A stretch of DNA of 64,000 bases from Streptacidiphilus carbonis (GTDB taxonomy: Bacteria; Actinomycetota; Actinomycetes; Streptomycetales; Streptomycetaceae). The notes beneath the pieces are model-generated. The model had not been told where the DNA came from. It did no database searches and worked only from the letters and a program-made list of their open reading frames with translations. The DNA lies in contig NZ_BBPM01000022.1 in NCBI RefSeq assembly GCF_000787775.1, positions 1-64,000 of the forward strand, in the 5' to 3' direction. The translations under genes and the position numbers were made by a program. Below, in pieces: positions 4,317 to 13,253 of the stretch. Numbering within the stretch: the first letter of the stretch is position 1; each line of letters starts with the position of its first letter.

Positions 4317-5870
4317 TCAGCGGCGGCCCCCCCAGAGTTCGCGCTCCCTCGGCCGCGGGTCGTACTGGACCTCGGATTCCAGGTCGAAGCGCATGGTGGC
4401 GCGTCGGTCGCGGTCGTAGGGGGGCCAGCCGGGGTCCCCGGTGGTCGCGAAGGCGACCCAGGCGGCGTGCACCACATCGGCGAGCCGCTGCGGGGGGTCC
4501 GTGCCGAGCAGGCCCGCCATGGACTTGTCGTGCAGGTTGTCGAAGACGAAGGGCAGTTCGGTGACATGGCAGGCGCCGAGCCGGCCGTCGAAGGTCGGCG
4601 GCCGCCAGCCGAACTCGTACACATAAGAAGAACCGTTTCCGCCACCGTCGCCGGCGCTGCCACCATCACCTGCGCCGTGTGCCTCGGCGAGCCGGACGGC
4701 AGGAATGCGGTAGAACCAGTCGGTGGCGAGGGCGGCCAGCAGCTCTCCCGGCGAGGCGTTCGGTTGCCGTTCTCGGTAGACCGCCAGGGCATGCTCCGGG
4801 TCGTCGAGGCCGTATCCGGTGGCGCTCTTCCGGGCCAGTTCCTCCGTCACCAGGTCGAGCAGGCCGGAGGGGGTGAGGTAGAGACGGAACTCGTCGCTGT
4901 TGGAGCCGATCAGCAGGTCGACCCCGGCGGCGGCTCCGGCCGCGACCGCGTCCAGCGGCGCGGTGGGGAGCAGTTCTCCGTCCACCACCGGCTCCAGCGC
5001 CATCAGATTGCGTGCCGCCTCCCCCCACCGGCCCGGTTCCGGATCGGAGGCGATCTCCCCGCGCAGCCCCCGCTGCACGGTGAGCAGCCGGTCCAGCGGT
5101 ACGGCGGCGAACGCCTCGCGGGTGGCCGGAATGCCGAGCCTGTCGGCGATATGACGGGCCACCAGTTCGGCCGTGGCGGGGGAGAGGGTGTGCTGGGCGG
5201 CGCCGCTCTGCAGGACGGCGCGCCGGAACAGTCCACGCGCCCGGGGTACGGCCAGCAGGGTGCCGATGCTCATCGCGCCGGCCGACTGGCCGAAGAGAGT
5301 GACCTGCCCGGGATCCCCGCCGAAGGCGGCGATGTTGTCCCTGACCCACTCCAGCGCGGCGATCTGGTCGAGCAGTCCGAGGTTGGCCGGGGCCGGGTCG
5401 TCGGCGCCGAGGTACAGGAATCCCTCCACACCCAGTCGGTAGTTGACGGTCACACAGACCACGCCGTCGCGGGCGAACCGGGCGCCGTCGTAGCCGGGGA
5501 CGGAGCCCGAGCCGTTGGTGAATCCGCCGCCGTGCAGCCACACCATGACCGGGAAAGGGCGGTTGGCGGGCCCTCCTGCCGGAACCCAGACGTTGAGGTT
5601 GAGGCAGTCCTCGCCCGGGATGTCGACCTCGGGGAGCAGTGCGTCCAGCGGTGCCGGGTACGGCGGCTTGGGCGGCGTCGGACCGTAGGCGGTGGCGTCG
5701 CGCTCACCGCTCCACGGCTCCGGCGGCTCCGGCGGACGGAAGCGGTTGGCGCGGAAGGGGGGCGCGGCATACGGAATGCCCTTGAAGGCCACTCCGCCGC
5801 CCTCGACCCGGTCCCCGCGGACGGCTCCGGCGGCGATTCGCACGACAGTCGGCTCAACAGGCTGCGTCAA
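4317..5870 (-). CDS. Type B carboxylesterase (para-nitrobenzyl esterase family)
   Basis: A 517-residue alpha/beta-hydrolase that should cleave carboxylic esters. The family signature EDCLNLNVWVP is at about residue 95, the oxyanion motif HGGGF at about 115, and the nucleophile elbow FGQSAG at about 194. FIGSNSDEF-like (LIGSNSDEF) carries the acidic member, and a C-terminal His (ACHVTELPFVF) completes the likely triad. No signal peptide is seen, so it is probably cytoplasmic. The start is a TTG at 5870 preceded by ACGGAG six bases upstream; no ATG or GTG suits better. A Gly/Ser-rich insert (GAGDGGSAGDGGGNG) sits in a surface loop at about 405-420. Substrate unknown. Confidence 0.88.
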   Translation of the reverse strand: MTQPVEPTVVRIAAGAVRGDRVEGGGVAFKGIPYAAPPFRANRFRPPEPPEPWSGERDATAYGPTPPKPPYPAPLDALLPEVDIPGEDCLNLNVWVPAGGPANRPFPVMVWLHGGGFTNGSGSVPGYDGARFARDGVVCVTVNYRLGVEGFLYLGADDPAPANLGLLDQIAALEWVRDNIAAFGGDPGQVTLFGQSAGAMSIGTLLAVPRARGLFRRAVLQSGAAQHTLSPATAELVARHIADRLGIPATREAFAAVPLDRLLTVQRGLRGEIASDPEPGRWGEAARNLMALEPVVDGELLPTAPLDAVAAGAAAGVDLLIGSNSDEFRLYLTPSGLLDLVTEELARKSATGYGLDDPEHALAVYRERQPNASPGELLAALATDWFYRIPAVRLAEAHGAGDGGSAGDGGGNGSSYVYEFGWRPPTFDGRLGACHVTELPFVFDNLHDKSMAGLLGTDPPQRLADVVHAAWVAFATTGDPGWPPYDRDRRATMRFDLESEVQYDPRPRERELWGGRR

Positions 5871-6205
5871 GGCGATCTCCGTTGTGATGGGCTCGGCGTG
5901 ACCGGTGATCGGCGGTCGGTAACCGGGTCTTCCGAACCGTAGAGCCGTCCCGCCGGCCCCGCAACCGTTCCGCCGCGCGATCGCCGGCCCGGCGGCGCCG
6001 GGGGTACTGACCCGGCAATGGCGTAGATGTTGGCGCTGGTTCGGGAGGGTTTGTCCGTTTGCGCAGTTCGACGCGGTCTGAGTTCCGGTGGTGCGGCCGC
6101 CGGGCGGCCGGGCTGCTGGAGGGCCGGTCCGGAGCCAGGACTAGGCTCCCCAGCGCGGGTGGGACCACGGGGGCCCCATCCGATCCCAGGGGAGGCCCAC
6201 CCACC
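5871..6205. other. Divergent intergenic region, 335 bp, no gene seen
   Basis: It separates the esterase (minus) from the YbjQ-like gene (plus) and must carry both promoters. GGACTAGGCTCC at 6138-6149 contains a possible -10 element (TAGGCT), but no convincing -35 partner stands at the right distance. GGGGAGG at 6189-6195 is the ribosome binding site for the plus gene. I see no RNA fold or repeat of note. Confidence 0.5.
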
Positions 6206-7015
6206 ATGACCACACCTGCACCCGCTTACGCACCGCTGCCCGACACCGCCCGGGGGCGGCTGGACAACTCACGGAGCGGCAAGCCCTGTTTCACCTCCGA
6301 CCTGTCCGTCAACGAGTTCGTGCTGGTCGGGCAGGCCGGCTTCGAGCCGCTCGGGATGGTGATGGGCACCAGCGTGTTCCACGTCGGCATCCAGTCGGCC
6401 GGCTGGAAGGTCAGCCAGGAGCTCGGCTACATCAGTCAGGCGATGTACAGCGCCCGGGAGTTGGCGATGTCCCGAATGGAGGCCGAAGCGGCGCAGCTCG
6501 GCGCGGACGGGGTGCTGGGGGTGGTGCTGCGCCCGATGGACTATCAGTTCTTCGCCGATGTCATCGAGTTCGTCGCAGTCGGCACGGCCGTGCGCAGCAC
6601 CGACGGCCGCCAGTACCGCAATTCCGACGGCAAGCCGTTCACCACCCCGCTCTCCGGCCAGGACTTCTGGACCCTGTGGCAGCACGGCTGGCTGCCGCGC
6701 CGGCTGGTGCTGGGCACCTGCGTCTACCACGTCGCACACCAGAGCCTGCGGCAGACGCTGTCCCGGATCGGCACCAACGCCGAGCTGCCCAACTTCACCC
6801 AGGCCCTTTACGACGCCCGGGAGTTGGCGATGTCCCGGATGCAGTACGAGGGGCAGCAGGTCGGTGCGGACGGCATCGTCGGGAGCAGGGTCGACGACCA
6901 CCGGTTCTGGGGAGAGCACGCGATCGAGTTCCTGGCGACGGGCACGGCGGTGAACCGGATCCGGCCGGACTCCACCCCGGCCCAGCCGAGCATGACACTG
7001 CCGCTGAGCGGGTGA
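6206..7015 (+). CDS. Tandem YbjQ/heavy-metal-binding-domain-like protein
   Basis: 269 residues made of two homologous halves, about residues 28-130 and 150-245. Each half has the pattern LVLGTCVYHV or LGMVMGTSVFHV, then YDARELAMSRM or YSARELAMSRM, then GADGI/GADGVLGV and an IEFLATGTAV or IEFVAVGTAV strand. This is the layout of the small YbjQ/UPF0145 fold, normally about 100 residues and pentameric; here two copies are fused. The fold is often annotated as heavy-metal binding, but no Cys/His metal cluster is visible, so I do not infer metal binding. The ribosome site GGGGAGG is 10 bases before the ATG. It lies 124 bp upstream of the vWA/AAA operon and may or may not belong with it. Confidence 0.7.
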   Translation: MTTPAPAYAPLPDTARGRLDNSRSGKPCFTSDLSVNEFVLVGQAGFEPLGMVMGTSVFHVGIQSAGWKVSQELGYISQAMYSARELAMSRMEAEAAQLGADGVLGVVLRPMDYQFFADVIEFVAVGTAVRSTDGRQYRNSDGKPFTTPLSGQDFWTLWQHGWLPRRLVLGTCVYHVAHQSLRQTLSRIGTNAELPNFTQALYDARELAMSRMQYEGQQVGADGIVGSRVDDHRFWGEHAIEFLATGTAVNRIRPDSTPAQPSMTLPLSG

Positions 7016-7139: not shown

Positions 7140-8174
7140 GTGGGGCTGACGATTGCCGACGGACGGAAACTGACCTTTCTGCTGGAGCTGGTCCGCCCGG
7201 ACCAGGCGCGGCGGGTGCTGGGCCGACTCGGGCAGCTCGGTAGCGAGCAGTCCGCACCGACCGAGCTGCGGATGCTGCTGAACGGCCGTCGGCCGCCGCC
7301 GCTCGGGGTGTGGCTGTGGGTGCTGGCCTGCGACCTGCCGGAGCTCAACGCGGTGGTCTTCGAGGTACGTCGCCTGGGTGACGCCATCCGCAGGGACATC
7401 ATCGAGGGAGTGCCGTTCGGTCCGGGGCGGGACCGACGCACCGAGCGGCTTCCGCTGGCGCCGGTACTGGAGCGGCGGCTGGAGCTCGCACGGTTCGAGG
7501 AGGAGTTCGACCTGCCGGACCGGCAGACCGCGAGCCGGCTGCTGCCGAGGCTGCGCGCGGCCGGCGAGGCCAGGCAACTGCGCCGGGCCCGGCAACTGGC
7601 CGGGGCGCTGCCTTACGACGAGTGGGACGAGGTCGCCCGGGCAGACCTTGCCGACCCGCTGCCCGGCTACGCCCGCTGGGCGCTGTCCTGTCATGTCAAC
7701 TGCCCGCCGTCGCTGCGCGGGCAGTTCGGCAGTCATGCGAAGTTCGAGTACCGGCTGCAGCAGGCCGGGGTAGTGGCGGAGCCGAACCGGTACCTGGCCG
7801 AGTACTCGGCCAGAGACGTGCTGCTGACCCTGGGCGCGATCGCGCAGCCCCACGTCCCCGGGGGCAGCAGGTTCAGGGCCGAACTGGAGCCCCTGGTGCG
7901 GGAGCATCTGGGTGGCCACAGCGACGCCTGGGCGGTGCTGGCCCAACTGCTGCCGACCTTCAACGGGTCCCTGCCGGAGCTGATCAGCACCGCTGGTGCG
8001 ATCGTCGGACCGGATCCAGACCCCGGACCGGATCTCGGCGCTGACGGAGCCTACGACGAGGACCGGTTGGATTCGAACCAACGTCCTGCTGATCCGCAGT
8101 CAGCCGCGCCTGCCGCTGCGCTACGGCCCCCGCCGGCACCGACCCTAGCGGTGGAGGGGGTGAGGCGGCCATGA
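7140..8174 (+). CDS. Unrecognised helical protein, first gene of the metallopeptidase-vWA/AAA operon
   Basis: 344 residues, GTG start at 7140 with a purine-rich AGGGGGGG stretch upstream. The protein is Arg/Leu-rich and looks largely alpha-helical (for example LLPRLRAAGEARQLRRARQLAG), with no signal peptide, membrane segment or catalytic motif I recognise. Its stop overlaps the start of the vWA gene (ATGA at 8171-8174), so it is probably an obligate partner of that system. The last about 40 residues are odd: they are read antisense through a tRNA-like gene (8058-8130) and include DSNQRP, the peptide typical of antisense T-arm translation. Real protein function probably ends near residue 305. 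It occupies the place of a third, adaptor-like component; that role is inferred from position only. Confidence 0.7.
   Translation: MGLTIADGRKLTFLLELVRPDQARRVLGRLGQLGSEQSAPTELRMLLNGRRPPPLGVWLWVLACDLPELNAVVFEVRRLGDAIRRDIIEGVPFGPGRDRRTERLPLAPVLERRLELARFEEEFDLPDRQTASRLLPRLRAAGEARQLRRARQLAGALPYDEWDEVARADLADPLPGYARWALSCHVNCPPSLRGQFGSHAKFEYRLQQAGVVAEPNRYLAEYSARDVLLTLGAIAQPHVPGGSRFRAELEPLVREHLGGHSDAWAVLAQLLPTFNGSLPELISTAGAIVGPDPDPGPDLGADGAYDEDRLDSNQRPADPQSAAPAAALRPPPAPTLAVEGVRRP
8058..8130 (-). tRNA. tRNA-like gene with anticodon GCG (codon CGC, Arg), antisense inside a CDS
   Basis: The minus strand folds into a full 73-nt cloverleaf. Acceptor GGGGCCG/CGGTCCT has two G-U pairs. T8-A9 are present. 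The D stem is GCGC/GCGC with loop AGCGGCAG. The anticodon stem is GCTGA/TCAGC with loop CTGCGGA, placing anticodon GCG at 8095-8097. There is a 5-nt variable loop, and the T arm is GTTGG-TTCGAAT-CCAAC. The discriminator is C and CCA is not encoded. Anticodon GCG is unexpected, since bacteria normally read CGC with an ACG anticodon. The D arm matches those of the two tRNA-like genes at 12.9-13.1 kb except for one loop base. It overlaps the 3' end of the plus-strand gene. It could be a functional special tRNA, a decoy or a remnant. Confidence 0.6.
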
Positions 8175-9595
8175 GTTACGAGCGTCCGCGGCTGCATGTG
8201 GTCGATCCCACCGACCGCCGGGCCCTGGCCGAGTTCCGTCCGGCGGCTCCGGCTGTCGTGGCCGAGGCAGGGCGGCTCAAGGAGGCCGCCCTGCTGGACT
8301 TCGGCCTGACCGAGTCGGCCGTCGCCTCCTGGCTGTACGCCAAGTGCCACCACCAACTGCCGACCACGGCGGTGGACACGGCCGCCGTGGTGGCCTCCGG
8401 CGACGGCAGCTGCCTGCTGCTCTACAACCCGGACTTCTTCGTCGCCCTCGGTCTGGACGGGGTCAAGTTCGTGCTCTTCCACGAGGCCCGTCATCTGGTC
8501 CAGCGTCATCTCTACACCGAACCGGAGCTGCGTGAGGACCCGGTGTTCACGATGGCGGCCGAGGTCACCATCAACCATGTCGCCCTGCTCCGGCTCGGCC
8601 GTCAGCGGCTCCCGCTGCTGGACGGCGCCCCGGTGGGCATCGACCCCAGGGAGGTGCACGCCGGCTATCTCGCCGACCTCGACGCCCAGGGGCTGGCGGC
8701 GCTGCCCTACCCGCTGTTCGTACGGACCGACCACGGCTGCTATTCCGAGCTCAAACGGATGCGCAACCCGCCCGTCCCGCAACCGCGCTGCATCCACCTC
8801 GGCGGCGGCGGCGGCGGTGGCGACGGCGGGATCGGTGACGGCGTGCCCTGCGACCAGGAGGCGGTGGACGCCGCCGTCTCGTCAGTGCTGCTCAACGCCC
8901 TGCTCGCGGCCCGGCGCGGTAACCGGACCGCTGAGGAGGAGCTGGTGGAGTTGATGGGCAGCAGCGAAGGCGGCTCCGCCAACGCCTCCAGGGTCTGGGG
9001 CCGGATCGGCGCCGGGGTGCTGCGCGGCGAGACCGTGCGCACCCGGCAGGTCGACTGGTGGCAGCGCTGGCTGGTGGACGTACTGGCGTCCAAGCTGCGC
9101 GAGGGCGAGCGGCTGGTGTACCCGAAGAAGCGCGGCGCAATCCTGGCCGCCCTGGGCCACGACCCGATGCTCTCCAGGCGCGGTCCGGTCCGGGACAAGG
9201 TACTGGCCATCGCCTTCGACACCTCGGGGTCGATGCCCGATCGGGTGGTGCGCCGGCTCACCGAACTGGTCGGGCAGATCGACGGGGTGCAGGCGCACTG
9301 GCTGTCCTTCGACGGTGCGGTGATGCCGTTCAAGCCGGGCGAGCGGGTGCACGGTGGCGGTGGCACCAGCTTCCAGGTGGTCGCCGACTACCTGGAGGGC
9401 CGCTCGGAGATCGACGGACGGTACTTCGAGGAACAACCCGACGCCGTCGTCGTGCTCACCGACGGCTACGCCCCGCACATCACCCCCGCCGAACCCGACA
9501 AGTGGATCTGGCTGATCACCGAGGGCGGCGACGACTGGCCCGAGACCCATACCCCCGCCATGGCCTGCCATCGCGTGACGACAGGAGAACAGTGA
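8171..9595 (+). CDS. Predicted metallopeptidase-vWA fusion protein (DUF2201/COG3864-type)
   Basis: 474 residues in two parts. The N-terminal half carries FHEARHLVQRHL, an HExxH zinc-peptidase motif at residues 104-108, followed by AAEVTINH, which offers further possible ligands. A Gly-rich linker (eight consecutive Gly near residue 216) leads to a C-terminal vWA-like domain with the MIDAS motif DTSGS at 350-354, a downstream GGGGTSF loop and VVLTDGYAP. The ending PDKWIWLITEGGDDW is typical of this family. Such proteins are regularly paired with MoxR-type AAA ATPases, which is exactly what follows. It overlaps the preceding gene by ATGA and the next by GTGA, so the three are translated as one unit. 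Protease activity and target are not shown by sequence alone. Confidence 0.85.
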   Translation: MSYERPRLHVVDPTDRRALAEFRPAAPAVVAEAGRLKEAALLDFGLTESAVASWLYAKCHHQLPTTAVDTAAVVASGDGSCLLLYNPDFFVALGLDGVKFVLFHEARHLVQRHLYTEPELREDPVFTMAAEVTINHVALLRLGRQRLPLLDGAPVGIDPREVHAGYLADLDAQGLAALPYPLFVRTDHGCYSELKRMRNPPVPQPRCIHLGGGGGGGDGGIGDGVPCDQEAVDAAVSSVLLNALLAARRGNRTAEEELVELMGSSEGGSANASRVWGRIGAGVLRGETVRTRQVDWWQRWLVDVLASKLREGERLVYPKKRGAILAALGHDPMLSRRGPVRDKVLAIAFDTSGSMPDRVVRRLTELVGQIDGVQAHWLSFDGAVMPFKPGERVHGGGGTSFQVVADYLEGRSEIDGRYFEEQPDAVVVLTDGYAPHITPAEPDKWIWLITEGGDDWPETHTPAMACHRVTTGEQ

Positions 9596-11487
9596 CCGAG
9601 CAGAGCACGGCGGACCACCACGAGCCGACCGGTCTGCGGGAGCCGACCGGTCTGCGAGAACTGGGCGAACTGCGGGAACTGTCCCCGCTGGAGAAGTTCA
9701 TCGACGCGATGATCGACCTCGGCCAGACCGGCCAGGTCTTCGGCGAGCACGGCATCGGCAAGACGGCGACGTTCTTCTCGCACATCGCCCGCTGCCACCC
9801 GGACACCGAGCTGGTCTTCGTCCCCGCCGCCAACCTCACCCCCGACGACCTGCTCGCCAACGCCCCGGTGCGCGACGCCGACAGTGGGGAACTGGTGCTG
9901 CGCCAGCTGGTGATGCGGCAGCTCCGGCCGGGGAGACGCTTCGTCCTGCTCCTAGACGACTCACTGCAGGCCGGGGAGTCGATCCAGTCGCAGCTGATGC
10001 AGATCGCCTGCAACTGGACCCTGGGCGAGTTCGACCTGCGTGAGCTCGGCTGCGTGGGTGTCTTCCTCACCGACAACGAGTCGCTGGCCGAGACCGCGGC
10101 CAGGCGCAGCGACCTGGCGATCCTGGACCGCATGGTCACCGTGCGGATCACCGCCAACGACACCGCCTGGCGGACCGAGCTCAGCGCCCGCTTCCCCGAG
10201 TGGGACCTCCGGCCGCTGTTCCGGCTCTGGGCCGCGCAGTCCCCGGCGGTGCGGGAGCTGCTGTCCCCGCGCACCCTGGAGCACATCCTGGCCCAGGCCC
10301 GCGAAGGATTCCCGCTGGTCTGGGGCCTGCCGCTGATCAACGGCGAGCGACTGCGGCTGGCCGATCCCGGTCGGGGCGACGACGGCAAGCCGCATCCGAG
10401 CCGCACCAACGAGATCCTGGACCGGATCGCCGCCGCCCTGGGCGTCCGCAACCCCTCCCAGATCCCGGACCCGGTGCGCCAGGTGGTCCGCGCCGCGCTG
10501 CGCAACCGCTGGACCGTGCTGCTTCAGGGGCCGCCCGGCTGCGGCAAGACCGAGATCGTCCGGCAGTTGGTCCGGGAGGAGCTGGGCCGCGAGCCGCTGT
10601 ACTACTCCATGCCGGTCACCAACGTCGAGGACCTCTGCGCGCCCGTGCCGACCCCGGACGGCTCGCTGGACAACCTGCTCGCCGCACACTTCACCGGCGA
10701 CCGGCCGAAGGCCATCGTCTGGGACGAGTACAACCGCCCCAAGGACAAGGCCGCCTTCGCCAAGCTGATGGAGATCACCCAGGAGTGGTCGCTGGCCGGA
10801 CAGCGCATCGCCGGCCTGCGCGCCCAGATCGCCCTGCAGAACCCGCCGTACCACCTGGGCCGCAAGCTCCAGGTGGCCAGGAACAACATCGCCCAGGCGA
10901 CGCGGTTCACCGCCTCGCTGGTCGTCGACCCGGCCGACATCCCCGCCAACGAGTGGCTGATCGACCGCTACGGCGCGGTCGCGGAGACGGTGCTGGAGTG
11001 GTGGAAGAACGACATCGACGAGGACGGCCGCGCCTGGATGACCAAGCGCACCCTGGAACGGCTGATCAAGCTGCACGGCAAGGGCCTGCCGCTGCGGATC
11101 GGCACCGTGTACCTGGGGGACGGCGAGTACGCGCCGGTCCCGCTGACCGCCCTGGAGGAGCGGCTGGAGCACAGGCCGGTGACGGGGCTGCGGGAGCTGG
11201 CCGAGGACCCGGAGGGCTGGGAGCAGCGGCTGCGCCGGGCGGCCGAGCACTCCATCGAGGGCACCAACGACAGCGACCTGGTGCACCAGGCGATCTCCAA
11301 CGCCGAGCTGTCGCAGCTGCGGAGGCACCAGCAGCTGATAGCCCGGCTGGTGGCCTGGCTGCCGCCGAAGCTGCGGTCCACCTATCTGGTGGGGGCCTCG
11401 GACGAGCACCAGCGCTTCTGGATCGAGACCTTCGCGCTGATGCCGCGTCAGCCGAGGCAGCCGGTGGCCGACTCGGTGACTCGGTGA
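9592..11487 (+). CDS. Double AAA+ (MoxR-like) ATPase, partner of the vWA protein
   Basis: 631 residues, GTG start at 9592 inside the previous gene's stop (GTGA), with AGGAG eight bases upstream. Two AAA modules are seen. The first has Walker A GEHGIGKT at residues 51-58 and a Walker-B-like LLLDDS near 120. The second has GPPGCGKT at 313-320 and Walker B IVWDEYN with its Asp at 378. The N-terminus has a short internal repeat (EPTGLREPTGLRELGELREL). MoxR ATPases remodel or insert cofactors into client proteins together with vWA partners, so it is likely the motor of this operon. Most MoxR proteins have one AAA module; two in one chain is the notable point. It ends at 11487 in a short GACTCGGT tandem repeat. 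Confidence 0.85.
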   Translation: MTEQSTADHHEPTGLREPTGLRELGELRELSPLEKFIDAMIDLGQTGQVFGEHGIGKTATFFSHIARCHPDTELVFVPAANLTPDDLLANAPVRDADSGELVLRQLVMRQLRPGRRFVLLLDDSLQAGESIQSQLMQIACNWTLGEFDLRELGCVGVFLTDNESLAETAARRSDLAILDRMVTVRITANDTAWRTELSARFPEWDLRPLFRLWAAQSPAVRELLSPRTLEHILAQAREGFPLVWGLPLINGERLRLADPGRGDDGKPHPSRTNEILDRIAAALGVRNPSQIPDPVRQVVRAALRNRWTVLLQGPPGCGKTEIVRQLVREELGREPLYYSMPVTNVEDLCAPVPTPDGSLDNLLAAHFTGDRPKAIVWDEYNRPKDKAAFAKLMEITQEWSLAGQRIAGLRAQIALQNPPYHLGRKLQVARNNIAQATRFTASLVVDPADIPANEWLIDRYGAVAETVLEWWKNDIDEDGRAWMTKRTLERLIKLHGKGLPLRIGTVYLGDGEYAPVPLTALEERLEHRPVTGLRELAEDPEGWEQRLRRAAEHSIEGTNDSDLVHQAISNAELSQLRRHQQLIARLVAWLPPKLRSTYLVGASDEHQRFWIETFALMPRQPRQPVADSVTR

Positions 11488-11511
11488 CTCGGTGACCGGG
11501 GCCGGGGTCGA

Positions 11512-12894
11512 CTACCACTCGGCGACGCGGTAGTCCTTCAGGAAGACGCCCGACACCGGCTGTCCGGCTTCGCCGCGCACGATCGGGTCGTAGACCCTGG
11601 CGGCCCCGTCGACGATGTCGAGCGGGGTGCGGAACCCCTGACCGGCGATCCACGCCTTCTTGGGCGCCGGGTTCTCGTCGGTGATCCAGCCGGTGTCGAC
11701 GCTGCTGAGGTGCACGCCCCGGGCGGCGAGCTCCTCCGCGCTGGTGCGGGTCAGCATGTTCAGCGCGGCCTTGGCCATATTGGTGTGCGGATGGCCGCCC
11801 GTCTTGTTCCGAACGGCGAAGCGGCCCTCGACCGCCGTCACATTGACGATGTAGCGGCGGGGGTGGGACGAGGCCAGAAGGAGCGGCAGCAGCCGGTCGC
11901 AGAGCAGCGCCGGCGACACGGCGTTGACCAACTGGGTCTCCAGCAGCTCTGCGGGGTCCAGCCCGCCGAGCCGGGCGGACCAGGAGTTCTCCTGTGCGGT
12001 GTCGGGCAGAAGCCCGGCCTCGTCGGTGAGCAGCGCGAGCGCCGACGCCGGCCCGGCGGCGCCGGCGGGCGCCAACTCCTGACCGGTACGGAACCCGGGA
12101 GCGTTCAGCATGCGATGCGCAGCCGCTGCGCGGGGGCTCTCGGCCAGCGCCTCCCGCTCACCGGCCGACAGCACGGCATACGCACCCGGCGGGCGGCGTA
12201 CGGTCTGTGCGGCATTGTTCACCAGGATGTCGAGGGGGCGATCCTCGGCACGCAACTCCTCACACAGTCCCAGCACTTGGCGCGGGTCGCGCAGGTCGAT
12301 GCCGATGACCGTCAGCCGGTCCAGCCAGCCGCAGCTGGCGGGCTCGGCCCGGAAGCGACGCACGGTGTCCTTGGGGAAGCGACTGGTGACGAGCAGCTCG
12401 GCGCCGTCACGCAGCAGCAACAGCCCCAGCTGGAACCCGATCTTCACCCGCCCACCGGTCAGCAGCGCGCGCCGCCCGCGCAGGTCGGCCCGCGCCTCAC
12501 GACGACTCAGGTTCTCGGCCGCGCAGGGCGGGCAGAGCTGGTGGTAGAAGGCATGCGCGAGGGTGTAGACGTCCTTGCAGATGTAGCAGCGTCGCGGTCG
12601 CCGATAACTACCGACGGTGTGGGGCGCTCCGGCACTCGGCAGCAGCGGCGCGTCTTCGCGGCGCTCTCCGTCTCCGGTCGCAGTCGCCCGCACCACCGCC
12701 GCATCCGCCTCGGCCGCCTCAGCCTTCCGCGCCCGCCGTCGCTGCTGCTGCCCGTCCCGCGCGAACGACTCCGCGACCCGCTCGGCCCGGAGCCGCACCG
12801 GGTCCGTGGCGGGAAGCGCCCGCAGCCGGCCGACGGTACGGGTGAACGCGTCGAGCTCGGCGTCGCTGAGCGGGAGGTCGTCGCTGTCGCCCAT
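11512..12894 (-). CDS. Zinc-ribbon SDR-fold protein lacking the catalytic Tyr, downstream of two tRNA-like genes
   Basis: 460 residues. Residues 1-100 are charged and helical. Cys103, 106, 121 and 124 (CYIC...CPPC) form a probable zinc ribbon. An SDR Rossmann domain follows: TGGRVKIG at 146-153 in place of TGxxxGIG, DILVNNAAQT for the NNAG motif, NVTAVEG at the usual Ser strand. In the place of YxxxK stands HTNMAK, so Lys is kept but Tyr is replaced by Thr. I remember a conserved family with this arrangement, including TVRRPPG and HPHTNMAKAALN, so the loss is not a local mutation. Classical dehydrogenase chemistry is therefore doubtful; nucleotide binding is likely. It sits 29 bases downstream of a same-strand tRNA-like gene, probably in one transcript, and converges on the vWA/AAA operon. 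Confidence 0.82.
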   Translation of the reverse strand: MGDSDDLPLSDAELDAFTRTVGRLRALPATDPVRLRAERVAESFARDGQQQRRRARKAEAAEADAAVVRATATGDGERREDAPLLPSAGAPHTVGSYRRPRRCYICKDVYTLAHAFYHQLCPPCAAENLSRREARADLRGRRALLTGGRVKIGFQLGLLLLRDGAELLVTSRFPKDTVRRFRAEPASCGWLDRLTVIGIDLRDPRQVLGLCEELRAEDRPLDILVNNAAQTVRRPPGAYAVLSAGEREALAESPRAAAAHRMLNAPGFRTGQELAPAGAAGPASALALLTDEAGLLPDTAQENSWSARLGGLDPAELLETQLVNAVSPALLCDRLLPLLLASSHPRRYIVNVTAVEGRFAVRNKTGGHPHTNMAKAALNMLTRTSAEELAARGVHLSSVDTGWITDENPAPKKAWIAGQGFRTPLDIVDGAARVYDPIVRGEAGQPVSGVFLKDYRVAEW

Positions 12895-12923
12895 CGCTCC
12901 TGCTCACCCCACGCCCGTTCCTG

Positions 12924-12995
12924 TGGCCCCGGCCGGATTCGAACCGGCGTGTCCTCCCTGAGAAGGAGGCGCGCCTGCCTCTGCGCTACGGGGCC
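12924..12995 (-). tRNA. tRNA-like gene with anticodon CTC (codon GAG, Glu)
   Basis: The minus strand gives a 72-nt cloverleaf without a mismatch. Acceptor GGCCCCG/CGGGGCC is all Watson-Crick. T8-A9 are present. D stem is GCGC/GCGC with loop AGAGGCAG. Anticodon stem CCTCC/GGAGG has loop TTCTCAG, with anticodon CTC at 12960-12962. The variable loop is 4 nt, and the T arm is GCCGG-TTCGAAT-CCGGC. Discriminator is A; CCA is not encoded. The usual streptomycete tRNA-Glu has a different D arm, so this is an additional, atypical gene. It shares D and T arms with the tRNA-like gene at 13012-13084 and lies just upstream of the zinc-ribbon SDR gene. Confidence 0.75.
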
Positions 12996-13011
12996 CTGCT
13001 TCTGCGGACTG

Positions 13012-13084
13012 CCCAGACGGCCGGATTCGAACCGGCGTGTTCTCCCATGCAAAGAGAGGGCGCCTGCCTCTGCGCTACATCCGG
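13012..13084 (-). tRNA. tRNA-like gene with anticodon TGC (codon GCA, Ala) and a G3-U70 pair
   Basis: The minus strand folds into 73 nt. Acceptor is CCGGATG/CGTCTGG, containing G3-U70, the hallmark recognised by alanyl-tRNA synthetase. The acceptor helix can extend three more pairs outward (13085-13087 with 13010-13012). D stem is GCGC/GCGC with loop AGAGGCAG. Anticodon stem is CTCTC/GGGAG with loop TTTGCAT, anticodon TGC at 13049-13051. T arm is GCCGG-TTCGAAT-CCGGC. The predicted discriminator is G, not the usual A for Ala, and position 1 is C. It is 16 bases upstream of the CTC gene, same strand, so a dicistronic tRNA transcript leading into the SDR gene is plausible. Confidence 0.68.
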
Positions 13085-13253
13085 GCATTGACGCTGATCG
13101 TAGCGGTCGAGGGGTGGGGCGCGCGTGGCCCGGCGGGGCGCAGGCGCCCCCTCCCGTAAGACGGCCGCCCGATGCCGGGCAAGGAGGGCGGGTGAGGTCG
13201 CGGCGCGGAGTCTGCCGTTGCAAGCGTGGGACGACACCCACTCGCCAAAGGTG

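Follow-up and report, generated by a model that had tools for sequence, protein, structure and literature searches.

Organization of the locus

A 64,000-nucleotide stretch of Streptacidiphilus carbonis DNA (assembly GCF_000787775.1, contig NZ_BBPM01000022.1, positions 1 to 64,000; here called the window) carries three genes resembling tRNA genes, set among four protein genes, from position 7140 to position 13,102. In this study the tRNA-like genes are called tRLs, and the proteins of the cassette are called g1, vWA, AAA, SDR (short-chain dehydrogenase/reductase) and, in relatives, LRR (leucine-rich repeat). The first gene on the plus strand encodes g1 (7140..8033), an all-helical protein assigned to no family; the ORF (open reading frame) stops near 8033 in most relatives and is open here to 8174 through an antisense tRL. 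It is followed on the same strand by the vWA gene (8171..9595), whose product has an N-terminal HExxH domain (DUF2201_N, PF13203, E 9.7e-8; motif HEARH) and a DTSGSM motif, and by the gene of a double-AAA ATPase (9592..11487), whose start overlaps the vWA stop and whose second domain is AAA_5 (PF07728, E 1.2e-7). The convergent SDR gene (11512..12894, minus strand; PF13561/PF00106, E 3.3e-14) encodes a protein with a C2-C2 zinc ribbon, the motif TGGRVKIG, and Thr at the position of the catalytic Tyr.

By ARAGORN, the window has exactly three tRNA genes, all of them at this locus and on the minus strand; the whole genome (8.46 Mb in 139 contigs) has 71 tRNA matches by Rfam. The left tRL (8057..8131), read as Arg(gcg) with the loop CTGCGGA, lies antisense to the g1-vWA junction and is of the Trp(CCA) type in most relatives. 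At the other end, an array begins with an Ala(tgc) tRL (13011..13084) and continues with a Glu(ctc) tRL (12923..12995), which ends 28 nucleotides (nt) ahead of the SDR start codon. The RF00005 scores are 60.7 bits for the left tRL and 47.7 and 60.8 bits for the Ala and Glu tRLs, against a cut-off of 29. Reading the sequence on the minus strand gives a -10 box, TAGGGT (8142..8147), for the left tRL and another, TACGAT (13097..13102), for the right array. Thus, ARAGORN, Rfam and the domain searches bear out a preliminary description of this DNA, which had named three tRNA-like genes beside HExxH-vWA, double-AAA and Tyr-less SDR genes. The same description placed the left tRNA inside the first gene of the operon. 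The tRL does overlap the g1 frame here, but it does so in just 3 of 42 relatives; the usual site is antisense in the gap between g1 and vWA.

Linkage of the tRLs to the cassette genes

All three tRLs of the window carry the D arm GTAGCGCAGnGGCAGGCGC. In the genome of S. carbonis, a pattern combining the D arm and the T arm matches these three tRLs and no others. Among the other tRNAs of this genome (61 distinct sequences by ARAGORN), none lies within two mismatches of the tRL D arm, while three Leu tRNAs lie at three. A scan of 84,980 species genomes with the pattern gave at least 116 stretches, each of up to 8 kb, with 80 titles listed, and all 80 are actinomycetes. Among the matches listed, 113 of 116 stretches contain at least one gene for g1, vWA, AAA, SDR or LRR, which rules out chance linkage and upholds the earlier proposal that the tRNA genes are dedicated to the neighboring proteins, across several actinomycete families. 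The exceptions are L148, L173 and L184. The tRL sequence of L173 is the same as one in genome G127, whose SDR gene sits 9 kb off, and L148 shares its record with the cassette loci L128 and L168. I regard the tRLs, with high confidence, as a dedicated and non-decoding RNA component of an actinobacterial cassette.

The carriers among the listed matches belong to Streptomycetaceae, Pseudonocardiaceae, Catenulisporaceae and Actinospicaceae, with single members of other families. In 394 genomes of the class, the tRL pattern was found in six, all from the family of S. carbonis. Since none of the 354 class members outside this family has it, the other carrier families hold the pattern sparsely. Many genomes in a set of 61 relatives have the D-arm pattern together with the vWA protein. 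The cassette is small and occurs in soil strains of Streptomyces and Kitasatospora that are kept in collections.

Two separable modules

The neighborhood is composed of two separable modules, each of which is found without the other. Module 1 has one to five tRLs, the SDR gene and often the LRR gene, all on one strand. Module 2 has the g1, vWA and AAA genes with one antisense tRL, usually of the Trp type. In 297 genomes of the family, the exact tRL pattern was found in 43, a strong vWA match in 32 and both in 21; a 33rd vWA match (E 8e-4) is not counted. When 18 loci were selected by their vWA gene, a cassette SDR gene was present in 10, all 10 with a tRL, whereas only one of the eight loci lacking the SDR gene has a tRL (L090, on a Catenulispora-type contig). 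The other seven (L084, L086, L087, L088, L089, L092 and L097) lack a tRL, although L088 is truncated where its contig ends, and three of the seven have an ordinary Ser tRNA further away. Conversely, a tRL and an SDR gene also occur together without the vWA-AAA pair.

One to five tRLs lie within 600 nt upstream of 82 of the 84 SDR genes that have at least 400 nt of upstream sequence, and all are on the SDR strand. The LRR gene, which is frequent in relatives and missing from the window, is downstream of the SDR gene and on the same strand in 57/57 loci showing both. For SDR genes that were selected by protein and lack the exact pattern, a tRL was sought by a relaxed scan or by ARAGORN. It was found in 14 of 18 cassette-type SDR loci (65-69% identity), the others being L250, L265, L273 and L274, the last two with less than 130 nt of upstream sequence. 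At 56-57% identity, one of two SDR genes has a tRL. A general SDR paralogue, which forms one supported clade at 48-53% identity, has a tRL in 0/8 cases. As for module 2, an antisense tRL lies between g1 and vWA in 43 of 46 loci, and 35 of these tRLs have a CTCCA (Trp-type) loop. The Catenulispora loci (L091, L093-L096, L098 and the SDR-less L090) are arranged differently, with one tRL downstream of the AAA gene and on its strand, preceding the SDR gene. Their tRLs have a D-T spacer of 36 nt (about 26 nt elsewhere) and a long anticodon loop that hardly varies within the group. Most of these position counts come from loci selected for a tRL and are descriptive; the informative comparisons are 113/116, 10/10 versus 1/8, and 14/18 versus 0/8.

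The preliminary description treated four proteins and the tRNAs as one system. The linkage holds, whereas the single system resolves into two modules with the LRR protein as a fifth protein in relatives. It had also named what would speak against it, namely that the operon and the SDR gene be found apart and free of tRNA neighbors. The parts are indeed found apart, and most lone vWA-AAA pairs are free of such neighbors, but cassette-type SDR genes are not.

Promoter and cloverleaf of the tRLs

In relatives, a TAnnnT box (consensus TAgGATC) precedes the 5′ end at a nearly fixed distance in 139/158 tRLs that are first in their array. The box was found in only 6/66 inner tRLs, and in 0/158 (far) and 3/158 cases in two upstream controls.

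Covariation was assessed in one length class of tRLs having at least six of seven acceptor pairs (36 rows: 35 of the 36 listed relatives and one window tRL, whose row is shifted by one column in the anticodon arm); 36 Trp-type rows with bulged acceptors are listed but not counted. Two-sided changes were found in 13 of 20 pairs, with a score of 0.556 against 0.157 after shuffling, and 97.9% of cells are paired, against 76.6% in shuffled and 31-50% in slid alignments. The changes are mainly in the acceptor and anticodon stems, while the D and T arms hardly vary; since the rows were picked for acceptor pairing, the acceptor figure is favored. In the unfiltered set of 203 tRLs, each of the five anticodon-stem pairs shows four to six standard pair types, and 36/1015 cells are unpaired. 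The acceptor is bulged in 42 of 52 Trp-type tRLs. When folded by energy alone, two of the three window RNAs form a cloverleaf. tRNA finders label the tRLs as ordinary tRNAs, but the tRLs resemble an RNA family of their own.

Composition and turnover of the anticodon loops

From 236 raw tRL matches, not counting the window, 203 unique sequences with a D-T spacer of 23-28 nt were obtained, of which 197 have a 7-nt anticodon loop; the loop counts below leave out the long-loop Catenulispora forms and the form of L217, a viral contig. The anticodons are CCA (52), GGC (26), GCC (26), CUC (20), GUC (17), GCU (15), CGC (11) and GCA (11), and the few remaining ones include four Val and three Arg types. 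In total, 190/197 anticodons are of the Trp, Ala, Gly, Asp, Glu, Cys and Ser(GCU) types, and no anticodon for Leu, Ile, Met, Phe, Tyr, His, Gln, Asn, Lys, Thr or Pro was found among the 197. A CA step at positions 35-36, 36-37 or 37-38 is present in 183/197 tRL loops, in contrast to 14/43 native isoacceptors. In the genome of S. carbonis, 192/197 of the tRL anticodons are present in the native set, and 56/197 loops are identical to a native loop.

U33 is kept in 169/197 tRLs and replaced in 28, and position 37 is C in 34 and U in three; thus, a part of the family, not every member, departs from the U33 and purine-37 expected for decoding. Outside the Trp type, positions 32 and 38 covary (113/145 standard pairs, against a mean of 81 and a maximum of 97 after shuffling). 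Such coupling is also known in real tRNA loops. AlaRS and SerRS recognize their tRNAs without reading the anticodon. Among the 40 Ala-type tRLs, G3:U70 is present in 2 of 30 that have at least six acceptor pairs (10 are unreadable), and the variable loop of the Ser types is 4-5 nt in 15/15, with a long arm in 0/15. Since these identity elements are missing, the known rules imply that a change of the anticodon to an Ala or Ser type cannot alter the amino acid that is charged. Evidence against ordinary decoding or charging comes from C37, from the absence of the AlaRS and SerRS identity elements and from the loss of U33 in some tRLs, and the tRLs probably act outside translation, as far as their sequences indicate.

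Turnover was assessed with 12 disjoint species pairs of at least 90% SDR identity, nine of which gave 15 tRL comparisons. The loop differs at 26/105 sites and the acceptor, D, anticodon-stem and T regions at 31/885 (p 2e-12, about 7-fold), but near-equal acceptors were demanded in the comparison, which therefore lowers the divergence outside the loop. In species whose SDRs are 96-98% identical, the acceptors and nearly the whole stem are alike while the loops differ, as in CTGCACA, TTGCTCA and TTCGCAT at one site. The loop is thus the fast part of the tRL, changing at about the neutral rate while U33 and CA are mostly held. A specificity loop that turns over while the rest is held is what is expected of a recognition element in conflict.

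Cassette proteins

In the vWA protein, H104, E105 and H108 as well as D350, S352 and S354 of the DxSxS motif are invariant in 32 sequences. The vWA assignment is made by this motif and a weak AlphaFold2 (AF2) model (pLDDT 68); the Pfam match is to DUF2201_N alone, with no match to a vWA domain. TROVE gave no Pfam match in the window vWA protein at E<=0.001 and none in 36 g1 proteins at E<=1, both at the sequence level. Both Walker A motifs of the AAA protein are invariant in 31 sequences. No transferase or LanB-like domain was found in the cassette proteins by domain searches. The LRR protein is of the ribonuclease-inhibitor (RNI) type by sequence, with 1dfj_I as the best PDB-sequence match (E 3.2e-22).

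In the SDR, C103, C106, C121, C124, T371 and K375 are invariant in 43 sequences. T371 replaces the Tyr of the YxxxK pair of catalytic classical SDRs, and K375 is kept. The general zinc-ribbon, Tyr-less paralogue, which has no tRNA neighbors, has the Rossmann fold, the Cys residues, TGGR(V/A)KIG and HTNMAK in common with it; these motifs are therefore not specific to tRL-linked proteins. This paralogue is common in the family, with at least one match to an N-terminal query in 270/297 genomes, and at locus L268 it adjoins a lipase-maturation-factor gene and an MFS gene.

The g1 protein matched nothing in NCBIfam or PADLOC at E<=0.1, no PDB sequence at E<=5 and nothing above chance in Pfam. Its AF2 model is good (pLDDT 89), but the best Foldseek hit (E 2.1) amounts to no match, and VIA Z scores reach at most 4.4, with HEAT/MIF4G-like pieces. 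A comparison with the third components of the VMAP/iSTAND/FtsH type, made without VMAP profiles, likewise stays at chance level in Pfam, at E 2.1 in Foldseek and at a VIA Z of at most 4.4. The g1 candidates of Catenulispora do not align with it beyond an hhalign probability of 12%. At L097, a vWA-AAA locus without an SDR gene, the C-terminal part of a 903-aa protein matches g1 (hhalign probability 96%).

At G011:C1:5699589-5701009 (L081, L062), the vWA match is in two overlapping pieces in different frames near the N-terminus, due to a frameshift, another start or a sequencing error. Split or truncated vWA, AAA or SDR matches were also found beside tRLs at L111, L147, L166, L174, L178, L202, L206 and G254:C93. 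Decay of the modules may be frequent.

Discussion

It is possible that the tRLs are decoys or sensors for attack on anticodon loops, and judging from the sequences I give this reading a probability of roughly 0.35 to 0.4. A cassette protein, most likely one of the SDR/LRR pair, would hold the tRLs by their constant D/T elbow, and the tRNA-like, CA-containing anticodon loop of each tRL would lure anticodon-loop ribonucleases. Such ribonucleases might derive from phages or competitors, or be a partner toxin. Once a tRL is cut or lost, the protein part would be released or triggered, and the AAA/HExxH-vWA pair, where present, might be a remodeller or a protease, serving as an effector or as a machine that resets the system. 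The turnover of the loops would then track the tRNAs that are attacked locally. I only tentatively propose, as the wider picture, a new bacterial RNA-protein immune or conflict system in which tRNA mimics are baits or sensors, the SDR and the RNI-type LRR protein are readers, and the HExxH-vWA and double-AAA proteins execute or reset. If this is true, tRNA mimicry serves bacteria as the sensor or bait of a compact ribonucleoprotein, whose parts (SDR, RNI-type LRR, HExxH-vWA and double AAA) have no role in tRNA biology that was found in the literature.

Anticodon loops are attacked by the nucleases PrrC, RloC, colicins D and E5 and VapC, and in animals by angiogenin, which is paired with RNH1. 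Angiogenin prefers CA steps, cleaves tRNA loops at them and is bound by an LRR inhibitor of the RNI type. The CA step and the RNI-type LRR protein of the cassette recall angiogenin and its inhibitor, as an analogy for which no homology is claimed. Attack on the anticodon loop is what the proposal would share with these nucleases, although no nuclease was recognized in the cassette.

A literature search, which covered few subscription papers, found no description of the tRL cassette. Y RNAs are known to imitate parts of tRNA. The nearest published ideas are the RNA repair operon rsr-yrlBA-rtcBA, which senses tRNA fragments (PMC7790460), and the MoxR-vWA ternary conflict systems of multicellular actinobacteria, in which an AAA and vWA pair is joined by further module proteins (PMC7159879); both differ from the cassette. 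The Ro60 (Rsr)-YrlA system resembles the cassette in having a non-coding RNA beside a vWA-containing protein, with tRNA damage as its setting. The vWA domain with MIDAS (metal ion-dependent adhesion site) is a further likeness, here by the DxSxS motif alone. Unlike in that system, the RNAs here are full cloverleaves, often in arrays and with changing loops, g1 has no TROVE match, and HExxH-vWA, double-AAA, SDR and LRR genes are present instead of any Rtc gene. The MoxR-vWA ternary systems share the AAA and vWA gene pair (vWA by motif here); the cassette differs in that no partner of the VMAP/iSTAND/FtsH type was recognized, its partners being g1 and, in the other operon, SDR/LRR, and in the central place of an RNA component. 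An AAA-vWA gene pair is also a feature of MoxR-vWA chaperones such as RavA-ViaA and NorQ-NorD. Compared with these, the pair here has two AAA domains in its AAA protein, HExxH ahead of the vWA part and tRL neighbors, and no known metalloenzyme client was recognized beside it in the window.

Several observations weigh against the decoy or sensor reading. The left tRL of the window (CTGCGGA) and 14/197 others have no CA step, and any NNC anticodon next to A37 also produces a CA at 36-37, so that the CA step may reflect GNN-codon identity. The sevenfold excess of loop changes is raised by the choice of near-equal acceptors; the loop divergence (0.248) does not exceed that of the SDR fourfold sites (0.21; p 0.39), and 7 of the 15 compared loops are identical. 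Because of the last two results, the loop may simply drift under the constraint of CA and U33. The left tRL of the window and L102, a Trp-type example, give no minimum-energy cloverleaf, and the folding z-scores are modest (-0.8 to -2.4). No RNA-binding or RNase domain was recognized in any cassette protein by domain and profile searches, and the defense profiles of PADLOC match the AAA protein only (best E 1.2e-7). Moreover, recurrent flanking ORF families, which I take to be desaturase, amidinohydrolase-like, ABC-F and LacI-type proteins, suggest that in many Streptomyces the cassette occupies a conserved site on the chromosome, with no obvious defense island.

The tRLs could instead be regulatory RNAs. 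Leader tRLs processed from the SDR mRNA would set its level, an antisense tRL would limit the g1-vWA-AAA operon, and the loop would be nearly free to change. The array promoter with tRLs directly before the SDR gene on its strand (82/84), the antisense position at the g1-vWA junction (43/46) and a loop divergence near that of fourfold sites are consistent with this. Such a free loop, however, would lose CA (kept in 183/197), U33 (169/197) and the 32-38 coupling, and the loop at the antisense place is mostly of one type, Trp (35/43). I consider this reading unlikely.

It is likewise doubtful that the cassette itself encodes a ribonucleoprotein with a toxin-like or RNA-modifying SDR or g1, the tRLs being its RNA half or its substrates. 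There are SDR-fold proteins that bind or cleave RNA, such as HSD17B10 of mitochondrial RNase P and CSP41, and this precedent, the tight coupling of tRL and SDR and the invariant Thr at the catalytic Tyr position (43 sequences) point toward it. On the other hand, the tRL-less paralogue has TGGR(V/A)KIG and HTNMAK too, and domain searches found no catalytic RNase signature in the cassette proteins.

Besides substrates and decoys, the preliminary description had also suggested aminoacyl donors, an idea that the missing identity elements disfavor. Charged tRLs would feed a cassette enzyme, for example in an SDR-dependent reaction on aminoacyl-RNA, and a switch of anticodon would alter the amino acid. 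A close link to a Rossmann-type protein, loops confined to a small set of amino acids (W/A/G/E/D/S/C in 190/197), mostly kept U33 and the coupled 32-38 pairing (113/145 versus 81 shuffled) would suit donors. Yet Ala (40/197) and Ser (15/197) types are common although their synthetases ignore the anticodon, G3:U70 and the long variable arm are nearly or wholly missing (2/30 and 0/15), and the cassette has no transferase or LanB-like domain by domain searches. Donors are thus quite improbable. That the tRLs are ordinary decoding tRNA genes, whose linkage is accidental or arises because mobile elements insert at them, is most improbable: Rfam and ARAGORN do score them as tRNA and 192/197 anticodons are in the native set, but the 113/116 linkage, the private constant D arm, C37 in 34/197, a base other than U33 in 28/197 and the 36-nt Catenulispora spacers stand against it.

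Genomic setting

Attachment sites of mobile elements seem unlikely, the flanking ORF families looking chromosomal by eye; no systematic integrase search was made. As to spread on plasmids, a search with the vWA protein as the sole query gave no match. A phage origin also seems unlikely: the right tRL pair of the window matches phages partially, and the matches are mostly annotated phage tRNAs. In a phage search, L217 itself gave nothing better than E 0.9. This viral contig has a full match to the D/T-arm pattern (L217:8605-8668) with a 7-bp anticodon stem, read by ARAGORN as Pro(cgg), and no cassette match; the phage carries T7-like internal virion, tail fiber and PAPS reductase genes. In the window, a YbjQ-type gene (6059-7015) lies directly upstream of g1, and no YbjQ is among the listed matches of 20 related loci. 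At L250, a Streptomycetaceae-type locus, positions 5598-5665 match Rfam ASdes, a mycobacterial small RNA family, with 66.5 bits; a desaturase-like flank is frequent beside the cassette.

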